A DNA stretch of 64,000 bases. It comes from Roseiarcus fermentans. Its GTDB lineage: Bacteria > Pseudomonadota > Alphaproteobacteria > Rhizobiales > Beijerinckiaceae. Within the stretch, counting starts at the first letter, position 1. The number at the start of each line of letters is the position of its first letter. Positions 1 through 13,533 of this stretch are shown here, one piece after another. The position numbers and the translations under genes are program-made. Location: assembly GCF_003315135.1 (NCBI RefSeq), contig NZ_QNRK01000026.1, forward strand, positions 1 to 64,000, given 5' to 3'. A model generated the notes under the pieces. That model had not been told where the DNA came from. It searched no databases and saw nothing but the letters and a program-made list of their open reading frames with translations.

Positions 1-128
1 CCTCCGCCGGCAACCTCAAGGCGACCTGGACCCAGGCCACGCTGGTCGATTGGCCAAGGGCCGAAGGCCGGCCGTTCCTGCGCCGCGCCACCCAGATCAA
101 AACCATCTGGACCCCCTACGGCGAGTGA
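1..128 (+). CDS. C-terminal end of a probable aldehyde dehydrogenase (partial)
   Basis: Only the last 41 codons and the TGA stop lie inside the window, in the frame starting at base 3. The peptide ends in TQIKTIWTPYGE, which resembles the terminal strand of NAD(P)-dependent aldehyde dehydrogenases (TQVKxIWxPxGE-like tails). No catalytic Cys or nucleotide-binding region is available to test this. The stop is 32 bp before the next start on the same strand, so it is probably the upstream member of the sugar/hydroxy-acid catabolic operon. The family call is inferred from the tail alone. Confidence 0.4.
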   Translation, partial: SAGNLKATWTQATLVDWPRAEGRPFLRRATQIKTIWTPYGE

Positions 129-160
129 GGCGGTTTCGTCTCGAGGCGGAGAACGACGCG

Positions 161-934
161 ATGTATCTCAATCGGTTCAAACTGGACGGTCGGGTGGCGG
201 TGGTGACGGGGGGCGCGCAAGGGATCGGGCTCGCCTGCGTCGAGGCGCTGAGCGAGGCCGGAGCGTACGTCTATGTCGCCGACAAGAACCCTGCGGGCGC
301 CGAGTCGGCCCGGACGGCGATGGCGGGGAAGGGTTACCAGACCGGTTTCGTGGAGATGGACGTCACGGATTCCGGATCGGTCGACGCCGCTGCGCAATCC
401 GTGATGCGCGACAAGGGCCGCGTCGACGTCCTGGTCTGCAACGCCGGCATCGCCCGATCCGACATCCGCGCGGAAGACATGTCGAACGGCGACTGGCTCG
501 ACGTCATCGATGTCAATCTCAACGGCCTGTTCTGGTGCTGCCGGGCTTTTGGCCGGCCCATGCTGGCCGCGGGCCGCGGCTCGATCGTGAATATCGGCTC
601 GATGTCCGGCTCGATCGTCAACAAGCCGCAGCCGCAGGCGCAATACAACGCTTCCAAGGCCGGCGTTCATCACCTGACGAAGTCGCTCGCCGCGGAATGG
701 GCGGCCCGCGGAGTCCGGGTGAACGCGGTTGCGCCCACCTACATCAACACGCCGCTCCTCGCCTACGCCAAGCAGAACAAGCCGATGTTCGACGTATGGA
801 TCGATGGAACGCCCCTGTCGCGCGTGGGAGAGGTCGACGAGGTCGCTTCCGTCGTGCTGTTTCTCGCTTCCGATGCGGCGAGCCTGATGACCGGCGCCGT
901 CGTGGCCGTCGACGGGGGTTACACCGCCTGGTGA
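161..934 (+). CDS. SDR family NAD-dependent oxidoreductase
   Basis: This is a 257-residue classical short-chain dehydrogenase/reductase. The cofactor motif TGGAQGIG is at residues 16-23, the NAG motif at 94-96, and the catalytic YNASK has Tyr162 and Lys166, with a Ser near 147-149. Asp41 at the end of the second beta strand favours NAD over NADP. The C-terminus, TGAVVAVDGGYTAW, is typical of sugar-alcohol and sugar-acid dehydrogenases. The ATG at 161 was chosen because a purine-rich GAGGCGGAG lies just upstream; an earlier in-frame start at 50 would overlap the preceding gene. The neighbours (second SDR, BKACE, ribose-type ABC importer) suggest oxidation of an imported polyol or hydroxy acid, but the substrate cannot be named from sequence. 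Confidence 0.9.
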   Translation: MYLNRFKLDGRVAVVTGGAQGIGLACVEALSEAGAYVYVADKNPAGAESARTAMAGKGYQTGFVEMDVTDSGSVDAAAQSVMRDKGRVDVLVCNAGIARSDIRAEDMSNGDWLDVIDVNLNGLFWCCRAFGRPMLAAGRGSIVNIGSMSGSIVNKPQPQAQYNASKAGVHHLTKSLAAEWAARGVRVNAVAPTYINTPLLAYAKQNKPMFDVWIDGTPLSRVGEVDEVASVVLFLASDAASLMTGAVVAVDGGYTAW

Positions 935-1042
935 CGGGAGGCGGGCCGCGACGTCGGCAGGGTTCCGCGACCGGCCTCGTCATTCTCGTGGCGGTTCTGC
1001 GCATCGCCCGAGCGGTGAAGTCGGGGCGATGTCCCCGTGTGC

Positions 1043-1060
1043 GAAAGATCCATATCTTTC
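1043..1060. promoter_or_regulatory. Operator-like inverted repeat GAAAGAT-N4-ATCTTTC
   Basis: A perfect 7-bp inverted repeat with a 4-bp spacer lies 100 bp upstream of the second SDR gene, in the 225-bp gap after the first. It is AT-rich compared with its surroundings and symmetrical, as expected for a dimeric repressor or activator site. A second dyad follows immediately. Its regulator is unknown; the PucR-type regulator encoded at the end of the operon is one candidate. Confidence 0.4.
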
Positions 1061-1067
1061 CCAGCTG

Positions 1068-1086
1068 AATGGCGTTCCGAGCCATT
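1068..1086. promoter_or_regulatory. Second inverted repeat AATGGC-N7-GCCATT
   Basis: Perfect 6-bp arms flank a 7-bp spacer, 8 bp downstream of the GAAAGAT dyad and 74 bp before the next start codon. It could be a second operator half of a composite promoter or a small leader hairpin. The sequence alone does not decide between them. Confidence 0.3.
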
Positions 1087-1159
1087 CCATTCGCCATCCG
1101 CCCCGCGCTAGTGTCCGGCGTCAAGGCGCGAGTCGATTGCGCCTGAGGGAGAGACGTCC

Positions 1160-1957
1160 ATGTCCGAAGGGGCGACGCCGCGCGCCATCGTGGTGCGCGA
1201 TCTGCGCGTGCTGGTCACCGCCGGAGCGAGCGGGATCGGGCGGGCCATAGCCCAGGCTTTCGCCGCCGGCGGCGCCCATGTCCACATCACCGACGTCGAC
1301 GAGGCCGCGGTCGCCGACACGGTCTCGCAAATCCCGGGCCTTTCCGCCACGGCGGGGGACGCGTCCTCGCCGCAGGACGCCGATCGCGCCGCAGCCGACG
1401 TGGGCGCCCGCTTCGGCGGCCTCGACGTTCTCGTCAACAACGTCGGCGTCGCGGGCCCGACCGGCGTGATCGACAGCCTCTCGGACGGCGACGTCGAGCG
1501 CACGATCGACATCAACCTCAAGTCGCACTTCTACTTTCTGAACCGCTGCGTGCCGCTGCTGCGCGGCTCGACGCGCAACCCCGGCGTGGTGGCGATGAGC
1601 TCGGTCGCCGGTCGCCTCGGCTACGGCAATCGAACGCCCTACGCCGCGACCAAATGGGCGATCGTCGGCCTCGTCAAGTCGCTCGCGGTCGAGCTCGGCC
1701 CCGACGGCGTCCGCGCCAACGCCATCCTGCCCGGCGTGGTCGAGGGCCCGCGCATGGACCGGGTGATCGCCGCGCGCGCCGCCGCCGAGGGGGCCGGCTT
1801 CGACGCGGTGCGCGACTCCTACCTCGGCAAGATCTCGCTGCGCCGCATGGTCCAGGCGGAGGACGTCGCCAACCTCGCCCTGTTCCTGTCCTCCGATCTC
1901 GCCCGCAACATCACCGGCCAGGCCATCAGCGTCGACGGCAATGTCGAATATCTTTGA
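1160..1957 (+). CDS. SDR family oxidoreductase
   Basis: This is a 265-residue short-chain dehydrogenase with TAGASGIG at residues 20-27, Asp45 after the second strand (NAD preference), NNVG at 93-96 and the catalytic pair Tyr161/Lys165 in YAATK. GAGGGAGAG precedes the ATG. The 3' end overlaps the BKACE gene by 17 bp, indicating translational coupling. Overlap with a beta-keto acid cleavage enzyme suggests that this SDR makes the beta-keto acid that BKACE consumes. That order of steps is inference. Confidence 0.9.
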   Translation: MSEGATPRAIVVRDLRVLVTAGASGIGRAIAQAFAAGGAHVHITDVDEAAVADTVSQIPGLSATAGDASSPQDADRAAADVGARFGGLDVLVNNVGVAGPTGVIDSLSDGDVERTIDINLKSHFYFLNRCVPLLRGSTRNPGVVAMSSVAGRLGYGNRTPYAATKWAIVGLVKSLAVELGPDGVRANAILPGVVEGPRMDRVIAARAAAEGAGFDAVRDSYLGKISLRRMVQAEDVANLALFLSSDLARNITGQAISVDGNVEYL

Positions 1958-2927
1958 CATCGCGCAGGGCGACCGGCGGCCTACGCAGGGACGGCGCAAG
2001 GTCGTCATCACCTGCGCGGTGACCGGGTCGGCGCACACGCCGTCGATGTCCGAATACCTGCCGGTGACGCCGGCCCAGATCGCCGCGCAGGCGATCGAGG
2101 CGGCCCGCGCCGGCGCCGCCGTCCTGCATCTCCACGCGCGCAACCCCGACGGCAGCCCGACGCCCGATCCCGCCGTCTTCCGCGAATTCGTGCCCCAGAT
2201 CGCCGCCGAGACCGACGCCATCCTCAATTTCACCACCGGCGGCGGCGGCGCGCCGATGACGCTCGAGGAGCGGCTCGCCTATCCGCTCAAGGCGCGGCCG
2301 GAATTGTGCTCGCTCAACATGGGCTCGATGAATTTCGCCTTCCACAAGGCGGCGCGCGGCGTCGTCGGCTGGAAGCACGCCTGGGAGAAACCCTACGTCG
2401 AGGGCTCCGACGACCGGGTGTTCAAGAACACCTTCCGCGACATCAAGGCCATCCTGGGCGAACTCGGCGATCAGCGCGGGGCGCGCTTCGAGTTCGAGTG
2501 CTACGATGTCGGGCATCTGCACAATCTCGCGCATTGCGTAGAGGAGGGCCTGGTCAGGGGCCCCCTGTTCATCCAGTGCGCGCTCGGCGTTCTCGGCGGC
2601 CTCGGGCCGGAGCCCGAGAGCCTGTTCCTGATGCGCAGCGCCGCCGACCGCCTGTTCGGCCGGCGCAACTACGAATTCTCCGTGCTCGGCGCCGGCCGTC
2701 ACCAGATGTCGCTGGTGACGATGGGCGCGATCATGGGCGGCCATGTCCGGGTCGGGCTCGAAGACAGCCTGTTCCTGAGCCGCGGCCTGCTCGCGCCCTC
2801 CTGCGCCGCGCAGGTTCTCAAGATCCGCAGGATCCTCGAGGAGTTGTCGCTCGACATCGCCACCCCGGCCGAGGCGCGCGAGATCCTGCAGACGAAGGGC
2901 GCCGACAAGGTGAACTTCCATGACTGA
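1941..2927 (+). CDS. BKACE family beta-keto acid cleavage enzyme (DUF849)
   Basis: The 328-residue protein has the layout of DUF849/BKACE enzymes, zinc-dependent TIM barrels that condense a beta-keto acid with acetyl-CoA to give acetoacetate and a new acyl-CoA. The opening strand (VVITCAVTGSAHTPSMS) and the zinc ligands His63 and His65 in LHLHARNPDG are visible, as is the conserved EFECYDVGHLHN segment. Known members act on 3-keto-5-aminohexanoate (kce) and dehydrocarnitine; substrate cannot be read from sequence. It overlaps the upstream SDR by 17 bp and the downstream permease by 8 bp. Finding it inside a ribose-type importer operon is unusual. Confidence 0.9.
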   Translation: MSNIFDIAQGDRRPTQGRRKVVITCAVTGSAHTPSMSEYLPVTPAQIAAQAIEAARAGAAVLHLHARNPDGSPTPDPAVFREFVPQIAAETDAILNFTTGGGGAPMTLEERLAYPLKARPELCSLNMGSMNFAFHKAARGVVGWKHAWEKPYVEGSDDRVFKNTFRDIKAILGELGDQRGARFEFECYDVGHLHNLAHCVEEGLVRGPLFIQCALGVLGGLGPEPESLFLMRSAADRLFGRRNYEFSVLGAGRHQMSLVTMGAIMGGHVRVGLEDSLFLSRGLLAPSCAAQVLKIRRILEELSLDIATPAEAREILQTKGADKVNFHD

Positions 2928-3936
2928 CGCGACCGCCAACGCAGCCGTTCCGATGGGGCGCAAGGCCCGGCGCAGCCTGCTCGAGCCGATCGTGCTCGGC
3001 GTCGCGCTGGCGCTGATCGTCCTGTTCTCGACGACCATCCCCGGCTTCGCCAGCCTCGGCAACCTCTCCGTCATCCTGTCCAACTCGACGTCGCTGGTGA
3101 TCCTGGCTTGCGGAATGGCGGTCGTGGTCATCTCCCGCGGCCTCGACCTGTCGCAGATCGCGGCGATGGTGGCCGGCGCCACGACCTTCAGCACGCTGAT
3201 CAACGCCGGCCTTCCCGCGGCGGCGGCGCTCGCCCTCGCGGTCCTGGCGATGGCGCTGATCGGCTTCGTCAACGGCTGGCTGATCGCCTTCGTCGAGATC
3301 CCCGCCATGCTGGCGACCCTGGCGACCGCCATGTTCATGACCGGCCTGTTCCGCTTCGGCGTGCTGCGCGGCGACTACCTCCTGATCCTGCCCAAGTCGA
3401 ACCCCGCGGTCGTGTTCTTCAAGTCCGACCTCCTGCCGGGACTGACCGCCCCGGTCGCGCTGATGATCGTGGCGCTGGTCGTGACGGGACTGGTCCTGCG
3501 CTTTTCCACCACCGGGCGCATCATCTACGGCATGGGCGACAATTTCCAGGCGGCGCGGCTGTCCGGCCTGCCGGTGCGCAACACCATCGTCTTCGTCTAC
3601 GTCTATTCGGCGCTCGCGGCGCTGCTCGCCGGGCTGGTGATCGCGTCGGCGAGCGGGACGGTCGATTTTCGCATCGTCACCAACGGCAGCCTGCTGTTCG
3701 AAGTGATCCTGGTGGTCGTGCTCGGCGGCATTCCGCTGCGCGGCGGACGCGGCGGCGTGCGCAACCTGCTCGTCGGCGCCGCGCTGATCGCGGTGCTGCG
3801 CAACGGCATGACGCTCTACGACTTCAGCACCCAGACCCAGGACATGCTCAAGGGCGTCATCCTGATGGCGGCGATTTTCGTCGACAATTATCTCAACCCG
3901 AGAGACGCAGAGACCGATACCGCCGGCGATCTGTGA
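2920..3936 (+). CDS. ABC transporter permease, ribose/sugar (RbsC) type
   Basis: The 338-residue inner-membrane protein is highly hydrophobic, with about eight to ten membrane segments starting near residue 23. It carries the BPD_transp_2 hallmarks: VVISRGLDLSQIAAMVAG near the first third and the EAA-like GRIIYGMGDNFQAARLSG loop that contacts the ATPase. It overlaps the BKACE gene and is followed by the binding protein. It probably pairs with the second permease, which is fused to a propeller domain, to form the channel. Confidence 0.93.
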   Translation: MTDATANAAVPMGRKARRSLLEPIVLGVALALIVLFSTTIPGFASLGNLSVILSNSTSLVILACGMAVVVISRGLDLSQIAAMVAGATTFSTLINAGLPAAAALALAVLAMALIGFVNGWLIAFVEIPAMLATLATAMFMTGLFRFGVLRGDYLLILPKSNPAVVFFKSDLLPGLTAPVALMIVALVVTGLVLRFSTTGRIIYGMGDNFQAARLSGLPVRNTIVFVYVYSALAALLAGLVIASASGTVDFRIVTNGSLLFEVILVVVLGGIPLRGGRGGVRNLLVGAALIAVLRNGMTLYDFSTQTQDMLKGVILMAAIFVDNYLNPRDAETDTAGDL

Positions 3937-3966
3937 ATCATGTTGGGCGCACCAGGGAGGAAACCG

Positions 3967-4977
3967 ATGTCGAATACCGGAAGAAACAGGCTGATGGGGA
4001 CGATTGCCGCCTTCGCGCTCGGCGCCTGCGTGGCGCTCGGCGCGACGGCCGCGGCGCGGGCGGACGCCGCCAGCGACATGGCCGGCAAGAAGGTGATCTT
4101 CGTGCCGATTTCCATGGGCATCACCCTCACCGAAGGCTGGGCGCGCCGGATGCGCGAGCATGCCGCGACCCACGGCTACAGCTTCGACGTCCGCGACGCC
4201 GCCTTCAACACGGGCGCGATGTCCGAACTGCTCGCCAAGGCGATCAGCGAGAAACCCGACGTCCTGGTGGTGCACAACCCGACGGTGCAGCTGCTCGCCC
4301 GCCAGATCAAGCAGGCACAGGCCGCCGGCATCAAGGTGCTGCAGATCAACCTCCAGTCCAATCAGCCTTCCAACGCCTTCGTCGGCGCCAACTGGACCCG
4401 CATCGGCACGGAGATCGCTCAGGACATCGTCAAGGAATGCGGCGCCGGCAGCGGCAAGTCGGGCAAGGTCGCGATCATTCCCGGCCAGCTCACCGCAGCC
4501 GACAGCGTGATGATGAACGAGGCGGCGTTCAAGGTGTTCAAGGACCATCCGGAGATCAAGGTGGTGTCGAACCAGGCCTCGGACTGGGAGCCGGAGAAGG
4601 CGCGCCAGATCACCGCGACGGTGTTGCAGCAGAACCCGGACCTGTGCGCGATCTTCGGCCACTGGGACGTCCACACGATCGGCGCCGGCAACGCGGTCAA
4701 GGACGCCGGCCTGTCGGGCAAGGTGCTCGTCTACGCCACCGGCGGCGGCGAGCAGGGCGAGGCGTGCAAGGCGATCGAGAACGGGACGCTCTCGGCCGAA
4801 TGGAGCTATGACGCCGACGGCCAGGGGCGGGACGCCGGCACGATGATCGACCTTCTGCTGCAGGGCGCCGCCGCTCCGGGCGGCGCGATGCTGATCGCGG
4901 AATCGCCGCTCAAGGTGATCAAGGCCGGTCCCGACTACGATCCGAGCCTGTGCTGGAAGATGCCGCCCAAGAAGTAA
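3967..4977 (+). CDS. Periplasmic sugar-binding protein of the ABC importer
   Basis: This is a 336-residue substrate-binding protein of the periplasmic-binding-protein 4 (ribose/LacI-like) fold. A signal peptide with a hydrophobic core at about residues 9-30 ends near AAARADA. The mature part begins KKVIFVPISMGITLTEGW and later has PDVLVVHNPT and TGGGEQGE, typical of this fold. The ATG at 3967 is preferred over one at 3940 because AGGGAGG sits six bases upstream and the signal peptide then begins normally. It captures the operon's substrate in the periplasm. A strong hairpin follows the stop codon. Confidence 0.93.
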   Translation: MSNTGRNRLMGTIAAFALGACVALGATAAARADAASDMAGKKVIFVPISMGITLTEGWARRMREHAATHGYSFDVRDAAFNTGAMSELLAKAISEKPDVLVVHNPTVQLLARQIKQAQAAGIKVLQINLQSNQPSNAFVGANWTRIGTEIAQDIVKECGAGSGKSGKVAIIPGQLTAADSVMMNEAAFKVFKDHPEIKVVSNQASDWEPEKARQITATVLQQNPDLCAIFGHWDVHTIGAGNAVKDAGLSGKVLVYATGGGEQGEACKAIENGTLSAEWSYDADGQGRDAGTMIDLLLQGAAAPGGAMLIAESPLKVIKAGPDYDPSLCWKMPPKK

Positions 4978-4985
4978 CCCCCACG

Positions 4986-5013
4986 CGCAGGGCCCCTGAC
5001 CAGGGGTCCTGCG
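4986..5013 (+). promoter_or_regulatory. Intercistronic hairpin after the binding-protein gene
   Basis: A 12-bp stem (one G-T wobble) with a GACC loop forms between the binding-protein stop and the next start: arm GCAGGGCCCCT pairs with AGGGGTCCTGC. No T-run follows, so it is not a classical terminator. In ABC operons such hairpins protect the upstream binding-protein mRNA and lower downstream expression; that role is inferred here. Confidence 0.55.
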
Positions 5014-5034
5014 TCCCTCCCGGAGATTTGCGCC

Positions 5035-7170
5035 TTGTCGGCCCAGTTCGAGTTCGCGGCGGCGCCGAAGGCGCGCACGCCTTATTTCGTCGTCTCCCCG
5101 CGGCGCGTTCTCTCGGAAATCCTGTCCAAGGGATGGGTCGAGAGCACCGTGCCGTTCGTCGCGTTCCTGTGCGTGATCTTCGGCGTCGGGCTGACCAGCC
5201 ACGGCTATTTCACCATCGACAATCTGCGTAATCTGGCGCTCTACGGGTCGGACGGCGGGCTCGTCGTCCTGGCGCTGTTCGTGGTCGTCGCCGCCGGCGG
5301 CATCGACCTGTCGGTCGGCTCCAATTTCGCCATGTCGGCGTTCGCCGCCCTCTATTGCTTCCATGTGCTGAACCTGCCCGTCCCCATCGTGCTGGCGGCG
5401 AGCCTCGCCTCCGGCGCGGCGGTCGGCGTGGTCAACGGGGCGCTCGCCGGGCTCGCCGGCTGCGGCGCGCTGCTGACGACGCTCGGGACCATGATCACGG
5501 TGCGCGGCGTCTACACGCTCGCCTCGCAAGGGCAGCTGGTCGCCATTTCCTCGAGCGCCCGGACCGACGAGGTCTGGGACTGGATCGGCTCGGAGCGGGT
5601 CCTGGGCGTTCCGGTCAACTTCTGGGCGCTCATTCTGGTGGCCGTCGCCGTGCTGGTGATGTTCCGCCAGTCCCGCTTCGGCTGGCACGTTCTGGCGGTC
5701 GGCGGCAACCGCAAGGCGGCGCGGCACGGCGGCATCCGGGTCAAGGCCACGATCTTCCTGGCCTACACGCTCGGCGGCGTGATCGTCGGCCTCGCCGGGT
5801 TCCTCTACGCCGCGCGCGAGAACGCCGTCGCCTCGGACACCGGCGTCGGCATGGAGTTCTTCGCCCTCACCGCGCTGGTGGTCGGGCTCGGCGGTTTCGT
5901 CCCCGGCCGCGGCTCGACGGTTGCGGTGCTGATCGGCTTCGCCACCATCTACATCCTCAACAACGCCCTCCTCAACGCCGGCCTGCGCGGCGATTTCGTC
6001 CAGCTCGCCATGGGCGCGATCCTGATCGTGATCCTGTCGATCGACACCAAGTTCAGGAAGCACAAGCACCGTCTGCTGGCCTCGACCTACGTCGACCCGG
6101 TCGCCTTCGAGGTCGACGCGGTCGCCGGGGCGAAAGGCCTGCTGCCGGGCGAGATCGCGGCCAAGCTCGCCGGCGCCGACATTCTCGCCGCCGGGCTGAT
6201 CGACGGCCCGGAGGACGTGATCCTCGACGCCGACGACCATCTCTTTTGCGGGACGCGCGACGGGCGTCTCGTCCGCATCGCGGCGCCCGGCTACGACGAG
6301 GTCGAGACCTTCGCCCAGATCGGCGGGCGGCCGCTCGGGCTGGCGCTCGACCGCGAGGGCCGCATCCTCGTCTGCGTCGCCGGCATGGGCCTCGTGCGCG
6401 TCGACCGGCAGCGCCAGGTCGAGCTCCTGACCGACCAGACCCAGCGCAGCCTGTTCACCATCCAGGACGACACGACCATCCGGATGGCCGACGACCTCGA
6501 TGTCGCCCCGGACGGGACGATCTATTTCTCCGACGCGACCAAGCGCTACGACATCGAGAGCTGGGGGCTCGACCTGCTCGAAGGCCGGCCGAACGGCCGC
6601 CTGCTGAGCTGGGACCCGAAGACGCGCAAGACCCGCACGGTGTGCGACAATCTGGTGTTCCCGAACGGCGTCTGCCTGACCCACGACGGTCGCCACCTGC
6701 TGGTCGCGAGCACGTGGACCTGCTCCCTGCTGATCTTCGATCTCGCCGACATGCGGGCCGGGCCGCGGGTGTTCGTTCACGGCCTGCCCGGCTATCCCGA
6801 CAACGTCAACCGCGCTTCCGACGGCGGCTACTGGATCGCGCTCGCCGGCATGCGCAATCCGGTGACCGATCTCGCCATGCGCTTTCCGGGCGTGCGCCGC
6901 CGCATGACGCGCGCGGTCGCGCCGACCCACTGGCTGTTCGGCAACCTCAACATCGGCGGCGTCCTCAAGATCGACGCCGCCGGCCGGGTCGTCGACGCCT
7001 ACTGGGACGAACCGGGCGGCCCGCTCTACATGATCACCTCGATGCGGGAGCATAAAGGGGCGCTCTATCTCGGCGGCGTCACCAACAACAAGATCGGCCG
7101 CATCCGGCTGGCGGCGGCCGACCCGTCCTGGACGGGACCGGCCAGCTACTGGGGAAAGGCCGAGCGGTGA
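5035..7170 (+). CDS. ABC permease fused to SMP-30/strictosidine-synthase-like propeller
   Basis: The 711-residue protein has two parts. Residues 1-342 are an RbsC-type permease with about eight membrane segments, including AAGGIDLSVGSNFAMSA near 86-102 and the ATPase-contacting GWHVLAVGGNRKAARHGG loop. After a basic linker (KFRKHKHR, 339-346), residues 370-711 are a six-bladed propeller-like domain beginning GLIDGPEDVILDADDHLF and containing DDLDVAPDGTIYFSDAT, PNGVCLTHDG and GLPGYPDNVNRASDGGYW, typical of the strictosidine synthase/lactonase superfamily. The start is TTG with GGAG upstream. Permease topology probably puts the propeller in the cytoplasm, where it could open an imported lactone. 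The stop overlaps the next GTG. Confidence 0.9.
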   Translation: MSAQFEFAAAPKARTPYFVVSPRRVLSEILSKGWVESTVPFVAFLCVIFGVGLTSHGYFTIDNLRNLALYGSDGGLVVLALFVVVAAGGIDLSVGSNFAMSAFAALYCFHVLNLPVPIVLAASLASGAAVGVVNGALAGLAGCGALLTTLGTMITVRGVYTLASQGQLVAISSSARTDEVWDWIGSERVLGVPVNFWALILVAVAVLVMFRQSRFGWHVLAVGGNRKAARHGGIRVKATIFLAYTLGGVIVGLAGFLYAARENAVASDTGVGMEFFALTALVVGLGGFVPGRGSTVAVLIGFATIYILNNALLNAGLRGDFVQLAMGAILIVILSIDTKFRKHKHRLLASTYVDPVAFEVDAVAGAKGLLPGEIAAKLAGADILAAGLIDGPEDVILDADDHLFCGTRDGRLVRIAAPGYDEVETFAQIGGRPLGLALDREGRILVCVAGMGLVRVDRQRQVELLTDQTQRSLFTIQDDTTIRMADDLDVAPDGTIYFSDATKRYDIESWGLDLLEGRPNGRLLSWDPKTRKTRTVCDNLVFPNGVCLTHDGRHLLVASTWTCSLLIFDLADMRAGPRVFVHGLPGYPDNVNRASDGGYWIALAGMRNPVTDLAMRFPGVRRRMTRAVAPTHWLFGNLNIGGVLKIDAAGRVVDAYWDEPGGPLYMITSMREHKGALYLGGVTNNKIGRIRLAAADPSWTGPASYWGKAER

Positions 7171-8207
7171 GACTGTGGCGTGACAGGCGGAAGTCGCCGT
7201 CGATGACGCTCGAGGGCGTGCTCGGGCCGAACAACCGGCTCGAGGAGGCGCGAGGGGTCCCAGTCGAAGCGCCCGAGGCGGTCTCGGTCGGCGCCGACGG
7301 GCGGCTGCTCTTCTCCTCGGGCGCCGCGGTGTTCGCACTGCGGAAATGGGGCGAGGCGCCGCAGGCCTTCGCCCAATTCGAGCGGCCGGTCACGGCGCTG
7401 TGCAGCAGCCCTGGCGGCCTCGTCGCGGTCGGGACGCTCGGCGGCGCGCTGCGGGTGTGCGACGAGTCCGGCCTGACCGTGAAAGGGTGGGCGGCGCCCG
7501 AGCTCGCGGCCGTGGCCGACGCGCTGTTCCTGTCCGAAGACGAGCTTGCCGTGGTCGACCACGGCTATACCGCCGACGAGCCGCTGCTCTCGGTCGCGCC
7601 CTGGGACGATGCGGCGCGCGGAAAGCTGGTGGCGCTCCGGCGCGACGGCGCGCCGCGCGTCCTCGCGGGCGGACTCCACTGCCCGATGGGCCTCGCCCGC
7701 GACGGCGGCGGGGCGCTGATCGTCACGGAATTCGAGCGCGCCCGGATCGTCGACTCCTCCGGCGAGACGCGCCAGGCCGGCTATCCCGGCTATCTCGGCA
7801 GGCTGCGCAAGACCGCGTCCGGCTACCTGATGACGTGCCTCTCGCGGCGCGACCCGCTGGTCGAGTTCCTCAAGACGGAAAAGGGCTTCGTCGACGCGAT
7901 GAAGGCGACCATCCCGCCGCGCTACTGGATCGGACCGCGCATCCACCCGGAATTCAGCCCCGACTTTCCGATCGAACTCGGGGCGACGCGGCTGTTCGGC
8001 GCGATCAAACCGTGGGCGCCGTCCTTCTCCTACGGGCTGGTGATCGAACTCAGCGACGCGCTCATGCCGGTCGGCTCGGCGCATTCGCGCGCCGACGGGC
8101 GCCGCCACGCCGTTTCCGACGCCGTCGTCTGGAACGGGGACCTCGTCGCCGTCAGCAAGGCGAGCGGGGAACTCCTGAACCTCGGTCCCACAGGAGCCCC
8201 GGCATGA
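7167..8207 (+). CDS. SMP-30/strictosidine-synthase-like beta-propeller protein
   Basis: The 346-residue soluble protein starts at a GTG overlapping the previous stop (GTGA) and ends in ATGA with the ATPase gene, so it is coupled on both sides. Repeated short strand motifs such as SVGADGRLLFSSGAAVFAL and GLHCPMGLARDGGGALIVTEFERARI indicate a propeller related to the C-terminal half of the upstream fusion. No signal peptide is seen, so it is likely cytoplasmic. It may be a lactonase or an accessory esterase; catalytic residues cannot be assigned with confidence. Confidence 0.8.
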   Translation: MRLWRDRRKSPSMTLEGVLGPNNRLEEARGVPVEAPEAVSVGADGRLLFSSGAAVFALRKWGEAPQAFAQFERPVTALCSSPGGLVAVGTLGGALRVCDESGLTVKGWAAPELAAVADALFLSEDELAVVDHGYTADEPLLSVAPWDDAARGKLVALRRDGAPRVLAGGLHCPMGLARDGGGALIVTEFERARIVDSSGETRQAGYPGYLGRLRKTASGYLMTCLSRRDPLVEFLKTEKGFVDAMKATIPPRYWIGPRIHPEFSPDFPIELGATRLFGAIKPWAPSFSYGLVIELSDALMPVGSAHSRADGRRHAVSDAVVWNGDLVAVSKASGELLNLGPTGAPA

Positions 8208-9700
8208 GCCGTCGCCCCATCGTCGCGCTCGAGAACGTCACCAAGCGCTATGGCGCGATCGCGGCGCTCGAGGCCGCGAACTTCGACCTCTATCCGGGCG
8301 AGATCCACGCGCTCGTCGGCGAGAACGGCGCAGGCAAGTCGACGTTGTGCAAGCTGATCGCCGGCGTCATGCCGCCGACCGAGGGCGTGCTGCGCATCGA
8401 CGACGCGCCGGTCGCCTTCTCGGCGCCCAAGGACGCGAGCCGGCTCGGCATCTCGATGGTGTTCCAGGAGACGAGCCTGGTGCCGCAGCTGACGGTGGCG
8501 CAGAACATGGTGCTCGGCCGCGAGCGCGCCTTCAACTCGGTGCGCAAGGTTAGAAACACGGCCCGCCAGGCGCTGCAGCGGCTGAACTTCAACGTCGACG
8601 CGTCGCAACTGGCAGGCGCCCTGTCCGCCGCCAAGCGTCAGATGGTCGAGATCGCCCGCGCGGTGCTGAACGACGCCCGGGTGATCATCTTCGACGAGCC
8701 GACGGCGTCGCTGACGCCGGAGGAGACGGAACATCTGTTCGACCTGATGAAGGCGTTGCGCCGGCGCGGGGTCGCCATGATCTTCATCTCGCATGCGCTC
8801 GAGGAGGCGCTCGCTCACGCCGACCGCGTCACCGTTCTCCGGAACGGGCGGTTGATGGTCACCGGCCCCGCGGCCGACTTCGACCGCGCCGGCCTCATCC
8901 GGCACATGATCGGCGAGGACCTCGCCAAACGCGACCCGACGGCGGCGGCGCGGCGCCCTCCGCCGGCGGCGGCGCCCGTCCTGCAGGTCGAGAACCTGCG
9001 CATGGGCGCGATGGTCAACAACATGTCCTTTTCCGTCTTTCCCGGGGAAATCACCGGAATCGCGGGCCTGATCGGCTCGGGACGGAGCGAAGCGGCGAGA
9101 GTCGTCGTCGGCCACACCAAGCGCAATTTCGGCGGCGGCCGGATCTGGCTGAACGGCCGCGAGGTTCGCTACGGATCGCCGGCCGAAGCGATCGCCGACG
9201 GCGTCGCCTACGTCAGCGAGGACCGCAAGCTCGACGGCTTCTTCGAGACGCTCGGCGTCTCCGAGAACATCGGACTGGGATGGCTCGCCAAATTCGGCCG
9301 CAGACGCTGGATCGCGCCGGCGCCGACGATGCGCGCGCTCGCCCAGGAATGGCGGACGAGGCTGTCGATCCGCGCAACCGGGTCGGATCAGCCGGTGCTC
9401 CACCTGTCGGGCGGCAACCAGCAGAAGGTCGTCATCGCCAAGTCGCTGGCGCAGCAGCCGCGGTTGATCATTTTCGACGAGCCGACGCGCGGGGTGGACG
9501 TCGGCGCCATCGCCGAGATCCACACGATCATCCGGGATCTCGCCCGCTCCGGCGCGGGCGTTGTCGTCATTTCGTCCTACCTGCCCGAGATCCTGGACCT
9601 GTCCGACCGCATCCTGGTCGCCAAGAGCGGCACCATCGCCGCCGAGTTCGTGCGCTCGGAGGCGACGGCCGAGAAGGTTCTCCAGGCCGCGATCCACTGA
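8204..9700 (+). CDS. Sugar ABC transporter double ATP-binding protein (RbsA type)
   Basis: The 498-residue protein has two ABC domains. Domain one has Walker A GENGAGKST at 39-47, signature LSAAKRQ at 140-146 and DEPT at 164-167. Domain two has the degenerate P-loop GLIGSGRSE at 288-296, a perfect LSGGNQQ at 401-407 and DEPTRG at 425-430. This asymmetry is characteristic of RbsA/XylG/MglA proteins. It energises the two permeases upstream. The ATG overlaps the preceding stop by four bases. Confidence 0.95.
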   Translation: MSRRPIVALENVTKRYGAIAALEAANFDLYPGEIHALVGENGAGKSTLCKLIAGVMPPTEGVLRIDDAPVAFSAPKDASRLGISMVFQETSLVPQLTVAQNMVLGRERAFNSVRKVRNTARQALQRLNFNVDASQLAGALSAAKRQMVEIARAVLNDARVIIFDEPTASLTPEETEHLFDLMKALRRRGVAMIFISHALEEALAHADRVTVLRNGRLMVTGPAADFDRAGLIRHMIGEDLAKRDPTAAARRPPPAAAPVLQVENLRMGAMVNNMSFSVFPGEITGIAGLIGSGRSEAARVVVGHTKRNFGGGRIWLNGREVRYGSPAEAIADGVAYVSEDRKLDGFFETLGVSENIGLGWLAKFGRRRWIAPAPTMRALAQEWRTRLSIRATGSDQPVLHLSGGNQQKVVIAKSLAQQPRLIIFDEPTRGVDVGAIAEIHTIIRDLARSGAGVVVISSYLPEILDLSDRILVAKSGTIAAEFVRSEATAEKVLQAAIH

Positions 9701-9811
9701 CGGGGCGGGATTGCTCGCGCCGACGCGAAAGCGCCAATGTCTCTCGCAAGGCGCAGGCGCGCCATCACGGCGTCGCCCTCGGCGCGAACGTCGCCAGCGG
9801 GAGAAGAACGG

Positions 9812-11740
9812 GTGTCTGCGAACAGCCTGGCCGCCGCCGCCAAGGTTCTGGAGACCGTCGCGCTCGGGGGCGGCGATTCCGATCTCGACGGCCTCGTCGC
9901 GGCGCTCGAGGCGGCGTCCGGCGACGCCGACGGCGCGGCGGTCGAGGAGTTCCGCCGCCATGTCGCGGCCATTCGCAGGCTCCTGAAGGACAACGCGCTG
10001 TCCGAGCGCGGTCTCAACGTCCTGATCGACACCACCCACGACCTCTCCAGCACGTTGACCTTGCAGGATCTGCTGCGGACGATCGTCGTCCGCGCGCGAA
10101 CCCTCGTCGGCGCGGACCTGGCCTGGGTGACGGTGCTCGACGACGAGTCCGGCGTCTTCCGCGTCGTGACGGCCGAGGGCCATCTGTCGCCGGCGACCGC
10201 CGCGATGACCAGCCGCATCGATTACGGGGCGGTCAGCCTGGTGATGAAGTCGAAGAGCTTCTTCGAGACGCAGGACTACCTGAGCGACCAGCGCTTCCCG
10301 CACGCGACGCATCTCGATCGCATCTTCGAGGACGAGAAGATCAAAGCGCTCGCCGGGTTCCCGATTCTCTGGGAGAACAAGGTCCACGGCCTTCTGTTCG
10401 TCGCCAATCGCCACGCCCGCAAGCTCGACGGCCCGGAGACGTCGCTGCTCGGCGCCTTCGCCCTGCACGCGGGCGTGGCGATGCAGAACGCCAACGCCTT
10501 CGCCATGCTGTCGGAGGCGCTCGCCGAAGCCGAGCGCAGCCGCAGCGCGCTGATCGACCACATCCAGAAGGTCGAGGCGTCGGCGGTGGCGCACGACGAA
10601 TTGACCGACCTTCTCGCCTCGGGCGCCGAGATCCGGCGCTTCCTCGAGAAGATGTCGAACCGGATCAGCGGCGTGGTCTTTCTGTACGACGACGCGTTCC
10701 GGATCCAGGACGAGTTCGCGAGCCCGGGCTACAACGCCGTCCTGGCGGACGAACTCAGGGCGGGGCGGATCGACCTCGCGCTGCTCATGCGCGCCAACGC
10801 GCAGTCGCGGCAGTCCGGCCGCTCGGTCGTCATGCTCGAGCGCGGCGACGAGCAGTGCCGGGCGATCGCGCTCCACGGCGGCGACGGCCGCCGCGACAGT
10901 CTGGTGATGTGCCACCCGGGCGAGCTCGACGCCATCGAGGTTCGCAACCTGGAGCGCAGCGCGGTGGCTCTCTCCATCGCCAAGCTCTGGAACGAGCGGC
11001 GCGAAACGGAAAGGCTGATCGCCTCCTCGGCGCTGCTTCGCCATCTGGTGCTGGTGCGGCCGCCCGACCCCTCGACCATCTCGGCGGCGCGCGACCGCCT
11101 CGGGCTGCGCGCCGACCAGCCCGTCCAGCTCGCCGTCATCGCGATGTCGGGCATGGATCGGGCCTCCCAGACCGCACGCGTCCGCGAATGCGCCACGAGC
11201 GTCTGCGTGCTGGTCGATCTGTTCGACGACGCCTACCTCGCCATCGGCCCCGTCGCAGCGATGCAGACCTTTCTGCACAGTCTTTCGAAGGCTCAGGGCG
11301 AGGGCGCAACCGGAGGCGTCCTGTCGGAGCCGTTCGGCGATCTGGCGGAGGCGGCCGACCATTTCGGCCGGGTCAACCGCGCCCTTCAGGTGCTGCGCAA
11401 GATGAAGGCGCTCGACCGCTTCGTGAACCAGCGCGAAGTCAACCTGTTCGCCAAGCTGTTCGAGGTCGCCGACGCGGCGCGCCTCGCCGCCTACGCGGAG
11501 CAGGTGCTCGGCCGGATCGCCGCCAAGGCGCCGCGGCAGAAGAGCGAACTCGAACGCACGCTGCTGGTCTATTTCGACGCCCAGCACAACATCAAGCGCA
11601 CGGCGGAGACGCTCGGTCTGCACATCAACACGGTTCGGCAGCGCCTCGACGCGCTGCGCGAGATGACGGGCGGCTGGGACGACCCGGTCGAGGGCCTCGA
11701 GCTGCACGTCGCGCTGAGGCTGAGCGCGCTCCTCGCGTGA
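9812..11740 (+). CDS. GAF domain/PucR-type (CdaR-like) transcriptional regulator
   Basis: The 642-residue soluble protein has a GAF-like sensor module (about residues 65-230: TLVGADLAWVTVLDDESGVF through ALHAGVAMQNANAFAM), a middle GGDEF-like/CdaR domain, and a C-terminal PucR helix-turn-helix (LLVYFDAQHNIKRTAETLGLHINTVRQRL region). The GTG at 9812 follows GGGAGAAG; an ATG 25 codons upstream (9737) is possible. Placed 111 bp after the transporter ATPase on the same strand, it probably senses the substrate or an intermediate and controls the operon. Confidence 0.85.
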   Translation: MSANSLAAAAKVLETVALGGGDSDLDGLVAALEAASGDADGAAVEEFRRHVAAIRRLLKDNALSERGLNVLIDTTHDLSSTLTLQDLLRTIVVRARTLVGADLAWVTVLDDESGVFRVVTAEGHLSPATAAMTSRIDYGAVSLVMKSKSFFETQDYLSDQRFPHATHLDRIFEDEKIKALAGFPILWENKVHGLLFVANRHARKLDGPETSLLGAFALHAGVAMQNANAFAMLSEALAEAERSRSALIDHIQKVEASAVAHDELTDLLASGAEIRRFLEKMSNRISGVVFLYDDAFRIQDEFASPGYNAVLADELRAGRIDLALLMRANAQSRQSGRSVVMLERGDEQCRAIALHGGDGRRDSLVMCHPGELDAIEVRNLERSAVALSIAKLWNERRETERLIASSALLRHLVLVRPPDPSTISAARDRLGLRADQPVQLAVIAMSGMDRASQTARVRECATSVCVLVDLFDDAYLAIGPVAAMQTFLHSLSKAQGEGATGGVLSEPFGDLAEAADHFGRVNRALQVLRKMKALDRFVNQREVNLFAKLFEVADAARLAAYAEQVLGRIAAKAPRQKSELERTLLVYFDAQHNIKRTAETLGLHINTVRQRLDALREMTGGWDDPVEGLELHVALRLSALLA

Positions 11741-12291: not shown

Positions 12292-13533
12292 ATGAGCACC
12301 GACGTGATTGCTTCGTCCCCCGTCCGCTGGCGGCGTTTTCTCGCCGTGGCCGGCCCGGGCATCGTCGTGATGCTCGCCGACACCGACGCCGGCAGCGTCA
12401 TCACGGCGGCGCAGAGCGGCGCGCAGTGGGGCTACAATCTGTTGCTCCTGCAGATTGTCCTGATTCCGATCCTGTACGTCGTTCAGGAACTCACCGTCCG
12501 TCTCGGCGCGGTGACCGGCCAGGGTCATGCGGCGCTGATCAAGAAGCATTTCGGCCGCGGCTGGGCGTGGCTCTCGGTCGCGACGCTGATCGTGACCTGC
12601 CTCGGCGCGCTGCTGACGGAATTCGCCGGCCTCACCGGCGTCGGCAATCTCATCGGCGTCCCGACGTCGGTCACGCTGGCGCTGGTGGTCGTGGCGATGC
12701 TGGCGATGGCGCTGATGCACGGCTACGCGACGGTCGAGCGGATCGCGATCGCGGTCGGCGCCTTCGAACTCGTGTTTCTTCTGGTCGCGATGCTCGCCCA
12801 TCCCGGCCTGACCGAGATGGCGTCCGGCGCGGTGACCATTCCCATCGCCGATCCGAAGTATCTCTTTCTGGTCTCGGCCAACATCGGCGCCGTGATCATG
12901 CCGTGGATGGTGTTCTTCCAGCAGGCGTCGATCGTCGAGAAGGGGATAACGGTCAAGGATCTCGGTTCGGCCAAGCTCGACACGGCGATCGGCGCGGTCG
13001 TCACCCAGGTCATCATGGCCTCGGTGCTGGTCGCGACGGCGGCGACGCTCAACAAGGCGGGCGGCGACCACGCGCTCGACACGGTCGAGGACATCGTCGG
13101 GGCGATCACCCCGTTCCTCGGCGGCTTCGCGGGCAAGCTCCTGTTCTGTCTCGGCATGGTCGGAGCGTCGACGGTGGCGGCGATCGTCGTGACGCTGACG
13201 GCGGCGCGCGCGCTGGCCGAGGTTCTGGGCGCGAAGCACAAGCTCGAGGACGAACCGAGCGAGGCGCCGTGCTTCTACGGCTTCTACGCCGTCGCGCTGA
13301 TCGTGTGCGCGACGATCGTGGGCTCCGGCGTGAACCTCGTCTCGCTCAGCGTCGGCGTTCAGGTGATGAACGCCCTCCTGCTGCCGATCGTGCTCGGCTT
13401 CCTGTTCCTGCTCGCCCGCAGGCTTCCGGCGCCCTACCGGCTGAAGGGCGGCTACGCCGGGCTCGTCGGCGCGATCATCGCGGCGACGGTGGTGTTCGGG
13501 GTCTATTCCGGCGTCGCCGGCCTCTGGGGCTGA
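12292..13533 (+). CDS. Divergent NRAMP family metal ion transporter
   Basis: The 413-residue inner-membrane protein has about eleven membrane segments and the NRAMP start (FLAVAGPGIVVML, residues 16-28). The canonical metal-binding DPGN of helix 1 is replaced by DTDAGS (30-35) and the MPH of helix 6 by MPW (203-205). It is therefore a divergent family member and its ion (Mn, Fe, Mg or other) is uncertain. The ATG at 12292 was chosen over 12154 because it gives the normal family N-terminus. It converges on an MFS exporter followed by irr, which hints at metal homeostasis. Confidence 0.88.
   Translation: MSTDVIASSPVRWRRFLAVAGPGIVVMLADTDAGSVITAAQSGAQWGYNLLLLQIVLIPILYVVQELTVRLGAVTGQGHAALIKKHFGRGWAWLSVATLIVTCLGALLTEFAGLTGVGNLIGVPTSVTLALVVVAMLAMALMHGYATVERIAIAVGAFELVFLLVAMLAHPGLTEMASGAVTIPIADPKYLFLVSANIGAVIMPWMVFFQQASIVEKGITVKDLGSAKLDTAIGAVVTQVIMASVLVATAATLNKAGGDHALDTVEDIVGAITPFLGGFAGKLLFCLGMVGASTVAAIVVTLTAARALAEVLGAKHKLEDEPSEAPCFYGFYAVALIVCATIVGSGVNLVSLSVGVQVMNALLLPIVLGFLFLLARRLPAPYRLKGGYAGLVGAIIAATVVFGVYSGVAGLWG

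Follow-up and report, generated by a model that had tools for sequence, protein, structure and literature searches.

The described systems closest to the locus analysed here are the ribose-type (RbsABC or CUT2) ATP-binding cassette (ABC) importers, the six-bladed propeller proteins around DFPase and PON1, and the beta-keto acid cleavage enzymes (BKACE; DUF849). The locus occupies the first 11,740 positions of a 64,000-nucleotide stretch of Roseiarcus fermentans contig NZ_QNRK01000026.1 (the window, by which we mean this whole stretch). It shares with CUT2 importers a PF13407 periplasmic binding protein (SBP), two PF02653 permeases and a single ATPase with two ABC domains, but differs from them by a propeller on one permease, a sister propeller gene, and neighbouring genes of an organic-acid type. 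The fused domain has the six-bladed fold and has kept the metal-ligand pattern of TGW6, the lactonase RPA3624, DFPase and PON1, from which it differs by its fusion to an ABC permease and its metal-less sister; its role as an enzyme is predicted. The window BKACE passes the family model NF053538, and differs from described members in being coupled to an importer and two short-chain dehydrogenases (SDRs). In the carnitine-breakdown BKACE operon a hydroxy-acid dehydrogenase is followed by BKACE, a likeness to the window, which however has SDRs instead and another kind of importer. The same protein families also occur in one cluster in Rhizobium tumorigenes (L232, NZ_CP117258.1), where an Rbs-type importer is accompanied by an SMP-30 gene, but there as separate genes in the order SBP-ATPase-permease-permease-SMP-30 and with about 25% identity over the matched part.

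We found that the two permeases (one of them fused to the first propeller), the SBP, the second propeller and the ATPase form a conserved five-gene cassette, and that SDR1-SDR2-BKACE is one of its many cargoes. We propose that these modules import hydroxy-acid lactones, esters or acids and carry a tethered cytoplasmic hydrolase, the compound imported at the window being oxidised by the SDRs and cleaved by BKACE; we give this explanation an even chance of being correct. The genes of the window are as follows.

161 to 934, + strand: SDR1, short-chain dehydrogenase, 257 aa (PF13561/PF00106; motifs TGGAQGIG and YNASK; start ATG at 161)
1160 to 1957, + strand: SDR2, short-chain dehydrogenase, 265 aa (PF13561/PF00106; motifs TAGASGIG and YAATK)
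1941 to 2927, + strand: BKACE, beta-keto acid cleavage enzyme, 328 aa (PF05853, 327.4 bits; NF053538, 466.9 bits)
2920 to 3936, + strand: PERM1, RbsC-type permease without an extra domain, 338 aa (PF02653)
3967 to 4977, + strand: SBP, periplasmic binding protein (Peripla_BP_4), 336 aa (PF13407, 150.8 bits)
5035 to 7170, + strand: fusion, 711 aa, of an RbsC-type permease (about residues 1-350) and a strictosidine-synthase-like six-bladed propeller (about 370-711)
7167 to 8207, + strand: PROP2, second propeller, metal ligands lost (from hhalign to the fused propeller, an AlphaFold model and residue columns)
8204 to 9700, + strand: RbsA-type ATPase, 498 aa (PF00005 in two stretches, two ABC domains)
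9737 to 11740, + strand: regulator with GAF and PucR C-terminal HTH domains (PF01590, PF13556)

The permease-propeller fusion and its cassette

An initial annotation of this DNA had described two permeases and two propellers. All four domains were found, but not all as separate genes: permease 2 and propeller 1 are encoded together, in a 711-aa protein with Pfam matches to PF02653 (BPD_transp_2) at residues 65-334, SSL_N at 377-415, SGL at 433-605 and Str_synth at 486-563. An assembly or frame artefact was ruled out by 123 further distinct fusions longer than 600 aa. Full-length fusions (about 680 or more of the 711 residues) were detected in at least 34 of 297 genomes of the order, including the window genome, which has at least three copies; 34 of 297 is a lower bound because at most three candidates were scored in most genomes. 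The fusion is also present at 80% coverage or more in 15 plasmid records, ranging from Shinella and Rhizobium to Paraburkholderia and Pantoea. Scanning genome contigs revealed at least 569 stretches that encode fusion relatives (of 591 candidate stretches), and all 80 loci retained from the scan span nearly the whole fusion query. These were placed in Alpha- (67), Beta- (3), Gamma- (4) and Deltaproteobacteria (1), with five unplaced. The 80 loci were selected by two peptide patterns, so conservation at window residues 447-456 and 668-677 is partly circular; the metal-ligand columns described below fall outside these residues. In five annotated plasmid records the fusion is named 'SMP-30/gluconolactonase/LRE family protein', a label that hides its permease nature, and PROP2 is named 'hypothetical protein' (four) or 'strictosidine synthase' (one); a sixth annotated record names the fusion a permease. 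No description of a permease-propeller fusion importer was recognised in a literature search that covered titles and abstract openings of the results viewed, most subscription papers being outside its scope.

The gene order PERM1-SBP-fusion-PROP2-ATPase is exact at 112 of the 128 fusion genes longer than 600 aa in the fetched loci, a recurrence that puts the arrangement far beyond chance. Among the other 16, eight are at contig or stretch ends, four have a PROP2 whose best match is the fused propeller, and four differ: a gene for a tannase-family protein is inserted at L079, the gene before the SBP is unlabelled at L089, the call is split at L100, and there is no PROP2 call at L122. The fusion and PROP2 genes touch or overlap in 95 of 121 cases and the PROP2 and ATPase genes in 99 of 118, both approximate counts as genes and starts were called by simple codon-usage methods. 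The tannase/feruloyl-esterase gene (PF07519) at L079 lies between PERM1 and SBP of a module of the window genome (L079:15422-17008), and another PF07519 gene (L096:5911-7575) is divergently oriented to a module closely related to that of the window.

Removal of five duplicates left 123 distinct modules besides that of the window. BKACE was called within the operon in just two of them (L092 and L104) and adjoins one more (L079). SDR1, SDR2 and BKACE are therefore one cargo among many, and the propellers belong to the importer rather than to the BKACE pathway. The initial annotation had paired the lactonase-like proteins with that pathway, which does not agree with propellers that accompany the importer in 123 further modules; we rejected the idea of two free lactonases of a BKACE pathway because the importer keeps its propellers with many unrelated cargoes.

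Fold, metal site and location of the propellers

AlphaFold models were obtained with a mean pLDDT of 85.8 for the fusion and 87.9 for PROP2. Residues 367-711 of the fusion model adopt the six-bladed propeller fold, with Z between 28 and 35 among the matches listed, including TGW6 (Z 34.8, rmsd 2.5, 276 residues), strictosidine synthase (Z 33.4), DFPase (Z 31.1) and RPA3624 (Z 30.9, rmsd 2.4, 268 residues). PROP2 had been called an SMP-30-like propeller. That it is a propeller was borne out: profile comparison shows full-length homology to the fused propeller (hhalign 99.9%, 309 columns), and its model has the six-bladed fold, matching strictosidine synthases, PON1 and DFPase at Z 26-28.5 among the matches listed, with NHL propellers scoring equally. 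PROP2 has no match in Pfam or NCBIfam.

Aligning 124 fused and 119 PROP2 sequences together allowed the metal site to be tabulated, at columns which we take to be equivalent to the calcium ligands of PON1, both catalytic and structural (E393, D394, position 486, D487, N544, D589 and N590 of the window fusion). In the fused propellers, E393 is present in 123 of 124 sequences (with one gap), D394, D487, N544, D589 and N590 are each present in all 124, and position 486 is aspartate in 101 and asparagine in 23. In PROP2, the E393 column contains aspartate in 101 of 119 sequences and the D394 column contains asparagine, aspartate or alanine. The 486 column is threonine in 96, the D487 column is alanine in 96 and aspartate in 10 of 119, and the N544 column is mixed, with asparagine in 22. 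The D589 column is alanine, glycine or serine in 118 of 119, and the N590 column is arginine in 115 of 119. Titles of PDB entries name E21, N120, N175 and D229 among the active-site mutants of DFPase. Judged by these residues, the fused propeller looks catalytic, while PROP2 has lost the metal site and has a conserved arginine there. A near-invariant motif close to the C-terminus of PROP2, S..HSRADG.RHG, is absent from the fused propeller consensus.

A hydrophobic N-terminus (Kyte-Doolittle) was found in none of 118 PROP2 proteins, compared with 85 of 117 SBPs. Right behind the last permease helix, all 39 of 39 fused proteins have four to six lysine or arginine residues against zero to two aspartate or glutamate residues. 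By the positive-inside rule, and given the topology of RbsC, this excess suggests that the fused propeller lies in the cytoplasm.

The fused propeller might instead be a scaffold, gate or sensor, with PROP2 as its partner and with uptake uncoupled from hydrolysis. Such a role would suit a PROP2 that nearly all modules retain despite its lost ligands, and a permease-fused domain retained with many different cargoes, which is odd for an enzyme with a single substrate. However, the metal-site columns are invariant in the 124 fused sequences while those of PROP2 have drifted, a conservation that would be needless in a pure scaffold, and we consider this alternative somewhat unlikely.

Cargo genes and the window operon

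Cargo families recur across the modules; their names derive from one or a few members of each single-linkage cluster, taken as representatives. AMP-binding CoA ligases are found at 30 loci (some fused to an enoyl-CoA hydratase domain), followed by CMD (19), a quinone-oxidoreductase-like Zn-ADH (16), LysR (14), acyl-CoA dehydrogenase, class IV aminotransferase and SDR (13 each), enoyl-CoA hydratase and family III CoA-transferase (11 each), another Zn-ADH (10) and aldehyde dehydrogenase (9). Rarer cargoes include HMG-CoA reductase (7), HMG-CoA-lyase-like proteins (5) and thiolase (4). The HMG-CoA reductase representative (L138) passes a degradative equivalog (438.8 versus a cut-off of 259.95), and the HMG-CoA lyase representative, from a module on contig C1 of the window genome (L080), passes its subfamily cut-off (449 versus 246). 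In Rhizobium sp. ACO-34A (L233, CP021373.1) a fused module is followed by two '3-oxoacyl-ACP reductase' genes, with no BKACE in the stretch shown; an SDR-like gene pair thus recurs as cargo without BKACE.

We compared the 136 genes beside 34 modules with the 140 genes beside 35 ordinary Peripla_BP_4 importers of the same genomes, using the first 25 families of each neighbour set, so that absence means two or fewer. From the 94 modules that had four neighbours, 37 were drawn at random and 34 were used; related modules are not independent. The 35 control loci come from 40 places in eight of ten searched genomes. These places were hand-picked from a list that ranked binding proteins by score, best first, a choice that may be biased towards textbook sugar importers. 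Nine of the 140 control 'neighbours' are Peripla_BP_4 proteins themselves. Beside the modules are SDR (12), LysR (9), CMD and GntR (8 each), AMP-binding (7), class IV aminotransferase and Zn-ADH (6 each), ECH (4) and HMGL (3) genes. Beside the control importers are GFO/IDH/MocA (10), FGGY, SDR and LacI (6 each), PfkB (4) and ROK (3) genes. None of these sugar families is among the first 25 beside the modules; AMP-binding, CMD, class IV aminotransferase, ECH and HMGL, in turn, are all missing from the first 25 beside the control importers. This suggests that the sampled module neighbours are of the acyl-CoA/organic-acid type and not of the ordinary sugar type, and it makes the 'sugar importer' of the initial annotation doubtful.

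The cut-offs of the NCBIfam sugar-importer equivalogs (RbsC, AraH, AlsB etc.; ribose, arabinose, allose and xylose models) were missed by the fusion (for example, 139.7 versus a cut-off of 398), PERM1 (135 versus 378), the SBP (85.3 versus 335) and the ATPase (447.7 versus 699). We regard it as a variant CUT2-type ABC importer, probably not a sugar system and apparently uncharacterised.

Mapped on a tree of 118 SBPs, the six labels used for cargo require 10 changes, compared with a mean of 35.7 after shuffling, and none of 200 shuffles was as low; this is a FastTree phylogeny with long-branch warnings, near relatives inflate the clustering, and 49 unlabelled rows were not counted. As cargo type follows the tree, importer clades look specialised and the class as a whole versatile. 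The window SBP belongs to a set of eight with 100% support, of which three have BKACE (the window, L092 and L104), three have a CoA ligase and two have neither; at L094 and L113 the CoA ligase may be part of an adjoining second module.

Pfam, NCBIfam, profile comparison and modelling together recovered every protein reported initially for the window, namely two SDRs, BKACE, the binding protein, two permeases, the RbsA-type ATPase and two propellers. The reported overlaps were reproduced as well: 17 bp for SDR2/BKACE, 8 bp for BKACE/PERM1, and 4 bp each for fusion/PROP2 and PROP2/ATPase. SDR1 is not tightly coupled, as it ends 225 bp ahead of SDR2. As the contig (C26) begins at base 1 of the window, the operon may be truncated at its upstream end. 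The ATPase has one Walker A match and the signatures LSAAK and LSGGN. The regulator gene, the last of the span, was missing from the initial gene list; its relatives adjoin modules L092, L096 and L104. Past it, at 12292-13533, lies an Nramp-family transporter gene that passes Pfam but is below the cut-offs of the NCBIfam NRAMP models listed.

The window BKACE scores 466.9 against the cut-off of 430 for NF053538 (3,5-dioxohexanoate:acetyl-CoA acetone transferase) and contains HLH at 63-65 and GLED at 272, presumably the HxH and glutamate of the BKACE metal motif. Its 8-bp overlap with PERM1 ties it to the importer operon, as first described, and the identical 8 bp are found at L092 and L104, where a relative of the regulator is divergent from BKACE. 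At L092, a thiolase, a CoA ligase and an SDR lie behind the module. Across an opposite-strand GntR gene from the module on contig C3 of the window genome (L079) are genes for a thiolase, a short-chain fatty acid transporter, a BKACE, a 3-hydroxyacyl-CoA dehydrogenase (3HCDH) family protein and an SDR; where the window has SDRs in place of the dehydrogenase of the carnitine operon, this locus does have a 3HCDH gene. A transketolase-type gene adjoining a RuBisCO-large-chain-like gene lies near this module (L079:91-2237). The C1 module has a gene of the HMG-CoA reductase family (351.8 bits, Pfam) on one side and HMG-CoA lyase on the other. We infer from these gene sets that the reactions at the window, C1 and C3 modules would all yield acetoacetate. 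The window genome has eight BKACE-family matches over the Pfam cut-off, and an SDR-SDR-BKACE row without an importer module is found in the same genome (L084, G000:C10:7000-26500), with 35%, 40% and 35% identity to the proteins of the window.

Proposed route and alternatives

Under the explanation that we propose, a ribose-type (CUT2) five-gene ABC importer would have taken in a hydrolase: one permease of the pair bears a propeller, and the gene directly behind encodes a sister propeller that lacks the metal ligands. The fused propeller, positioned below the pore in the cytoplasm, would hydrolyse a lactone or ester on arrival, and the freed acid would be trapped and would then go to an enzyme that handles acids (CoA ligase, CoA-transferase or BKACE). 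In the window, one or both SDRs would oxidise the hydroxy acid to a beta-keto acid, which BKACE would cleave with acetyl-CoA to acetoacetate and an acyl-CoA; oxidation of a hydroxy acid ahead of this cleavage, which the initial annotation had suggested, is still a natural reading.

Conceivably, the window importer takes up a 3,5-dihydroxy acid, or the corresponding delta-lactone, from which two oxidations would give a 3,5-dioxo acid. This weak guess comes from the NF053538 match, since two oxidations are needed for a 3,5-dioxo acid, and from the same pattern in mevalonate (3,5-dihydroxy-3-methylpentanoate, a lactone-forming 3,5-dihydroxy acid), as the C1 module is flanked by HMG-CoA reductase and lyase. 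It is weak because the NF053538 cut-off is not reached by the BKACEs of L092, L104 and L079 (in ascending order, their scores are 354.8, 362.8 and 379.6 versus 430) and because the family is reported to be promiscuous (PMC4922564). An exact substrate read from NF053538 alone was rejected, as related BKACEs beside related importers miss the cut-off.

These missed cut-offs and this promiscuity also weigh against the proposed explanation as a whole, as do five further observations. Strictosidine synthase has the same fold and is not a hydrolase, so the fold does not give the reaction. No module was found beside any of 20 loci with BKACE homologues of 58-63% identity, six of which are short stretches near contig ends (L214, L215, L218, L219, L222 and L227). 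Within the set of eight around the window SBP, relatives have other cargo, and BKACE is present in three of the eight. No recognised recurrent cargo label is present in 54 of the 123 modules. A module in Pantoea At-9b is accompanied by dihydroxyacetone kinase, triose-phosphate isomerase and related genes, and some module clades may accordingly take up sugar acids.

On the comparison of BKACE neighbourhoods at these 20 loci, six of them short stretches, we rejected a general partnership between BKACE and the importer. The comparison also bears on the alternative that SDR-SDR-BKACE and the importer are adjacent by chance or share only regulation, with BKACE acting on a substrate unrelated to that of the importer. 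In its favour, these BKACE homologues lie away from the importer at 20 of 20 loci, and close importer relatives carry other cargo. Against it, the BKACE/PERM1 overlap is identical in the window, L092 and L104, which also have related regulators, and a second module of the same genome (L079) adjoins a BKACE too; we judge it to be quite improbable. About as improbable is the model of the initial annotation, a sugar or sugar-lactone importer with two lactonases serving an SDR-SDR-BKACE pathway: the importer proteins do score best with sugar-importer models (far below cut-offs), unfused SMP-30 genes beside Rbs-type importers do occur (L232) and the Pantoea At-9b module has carbohydrate genes, but the propellers travel with the importer across many unrelated cargoes, the sugar-kinase and GFO/IDH/MocA families that lead beside control importers are absent from the first 25 beside modules, and PROP2 is without metal ligands.

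The proposed import and hydrolysis of lactones, esters or acids can be tentatively widened to a class of systems that couple uptake to hydrolysis. In such a class, the hydrolase propeller tethered to one permease half and its metal-less, arginine-bearing sister would together make up a vestibule on the cytoplasmic side, where lactones or esters are opened on leaving the pore and the acid is trapped, and exchangeable cargo would serve many pathways, including a mevalonate/mevalonolactone route at the C1 module and the BKACE route in the window. We hold this wider version with clearly less confidence than the explanation from which it extends.

Regrouping the propellers with the importer corrects a gene unit that would otherwise point readers to a sugar lactone pathway. 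If the fused domain is an enzyme, the cassette would be an ABC importer whose channel incorporates a metabolic enzyme. It would then offer a handle on substrate trapping, and the uptake substrates of many orphan transporters would become predictable from their cargo.

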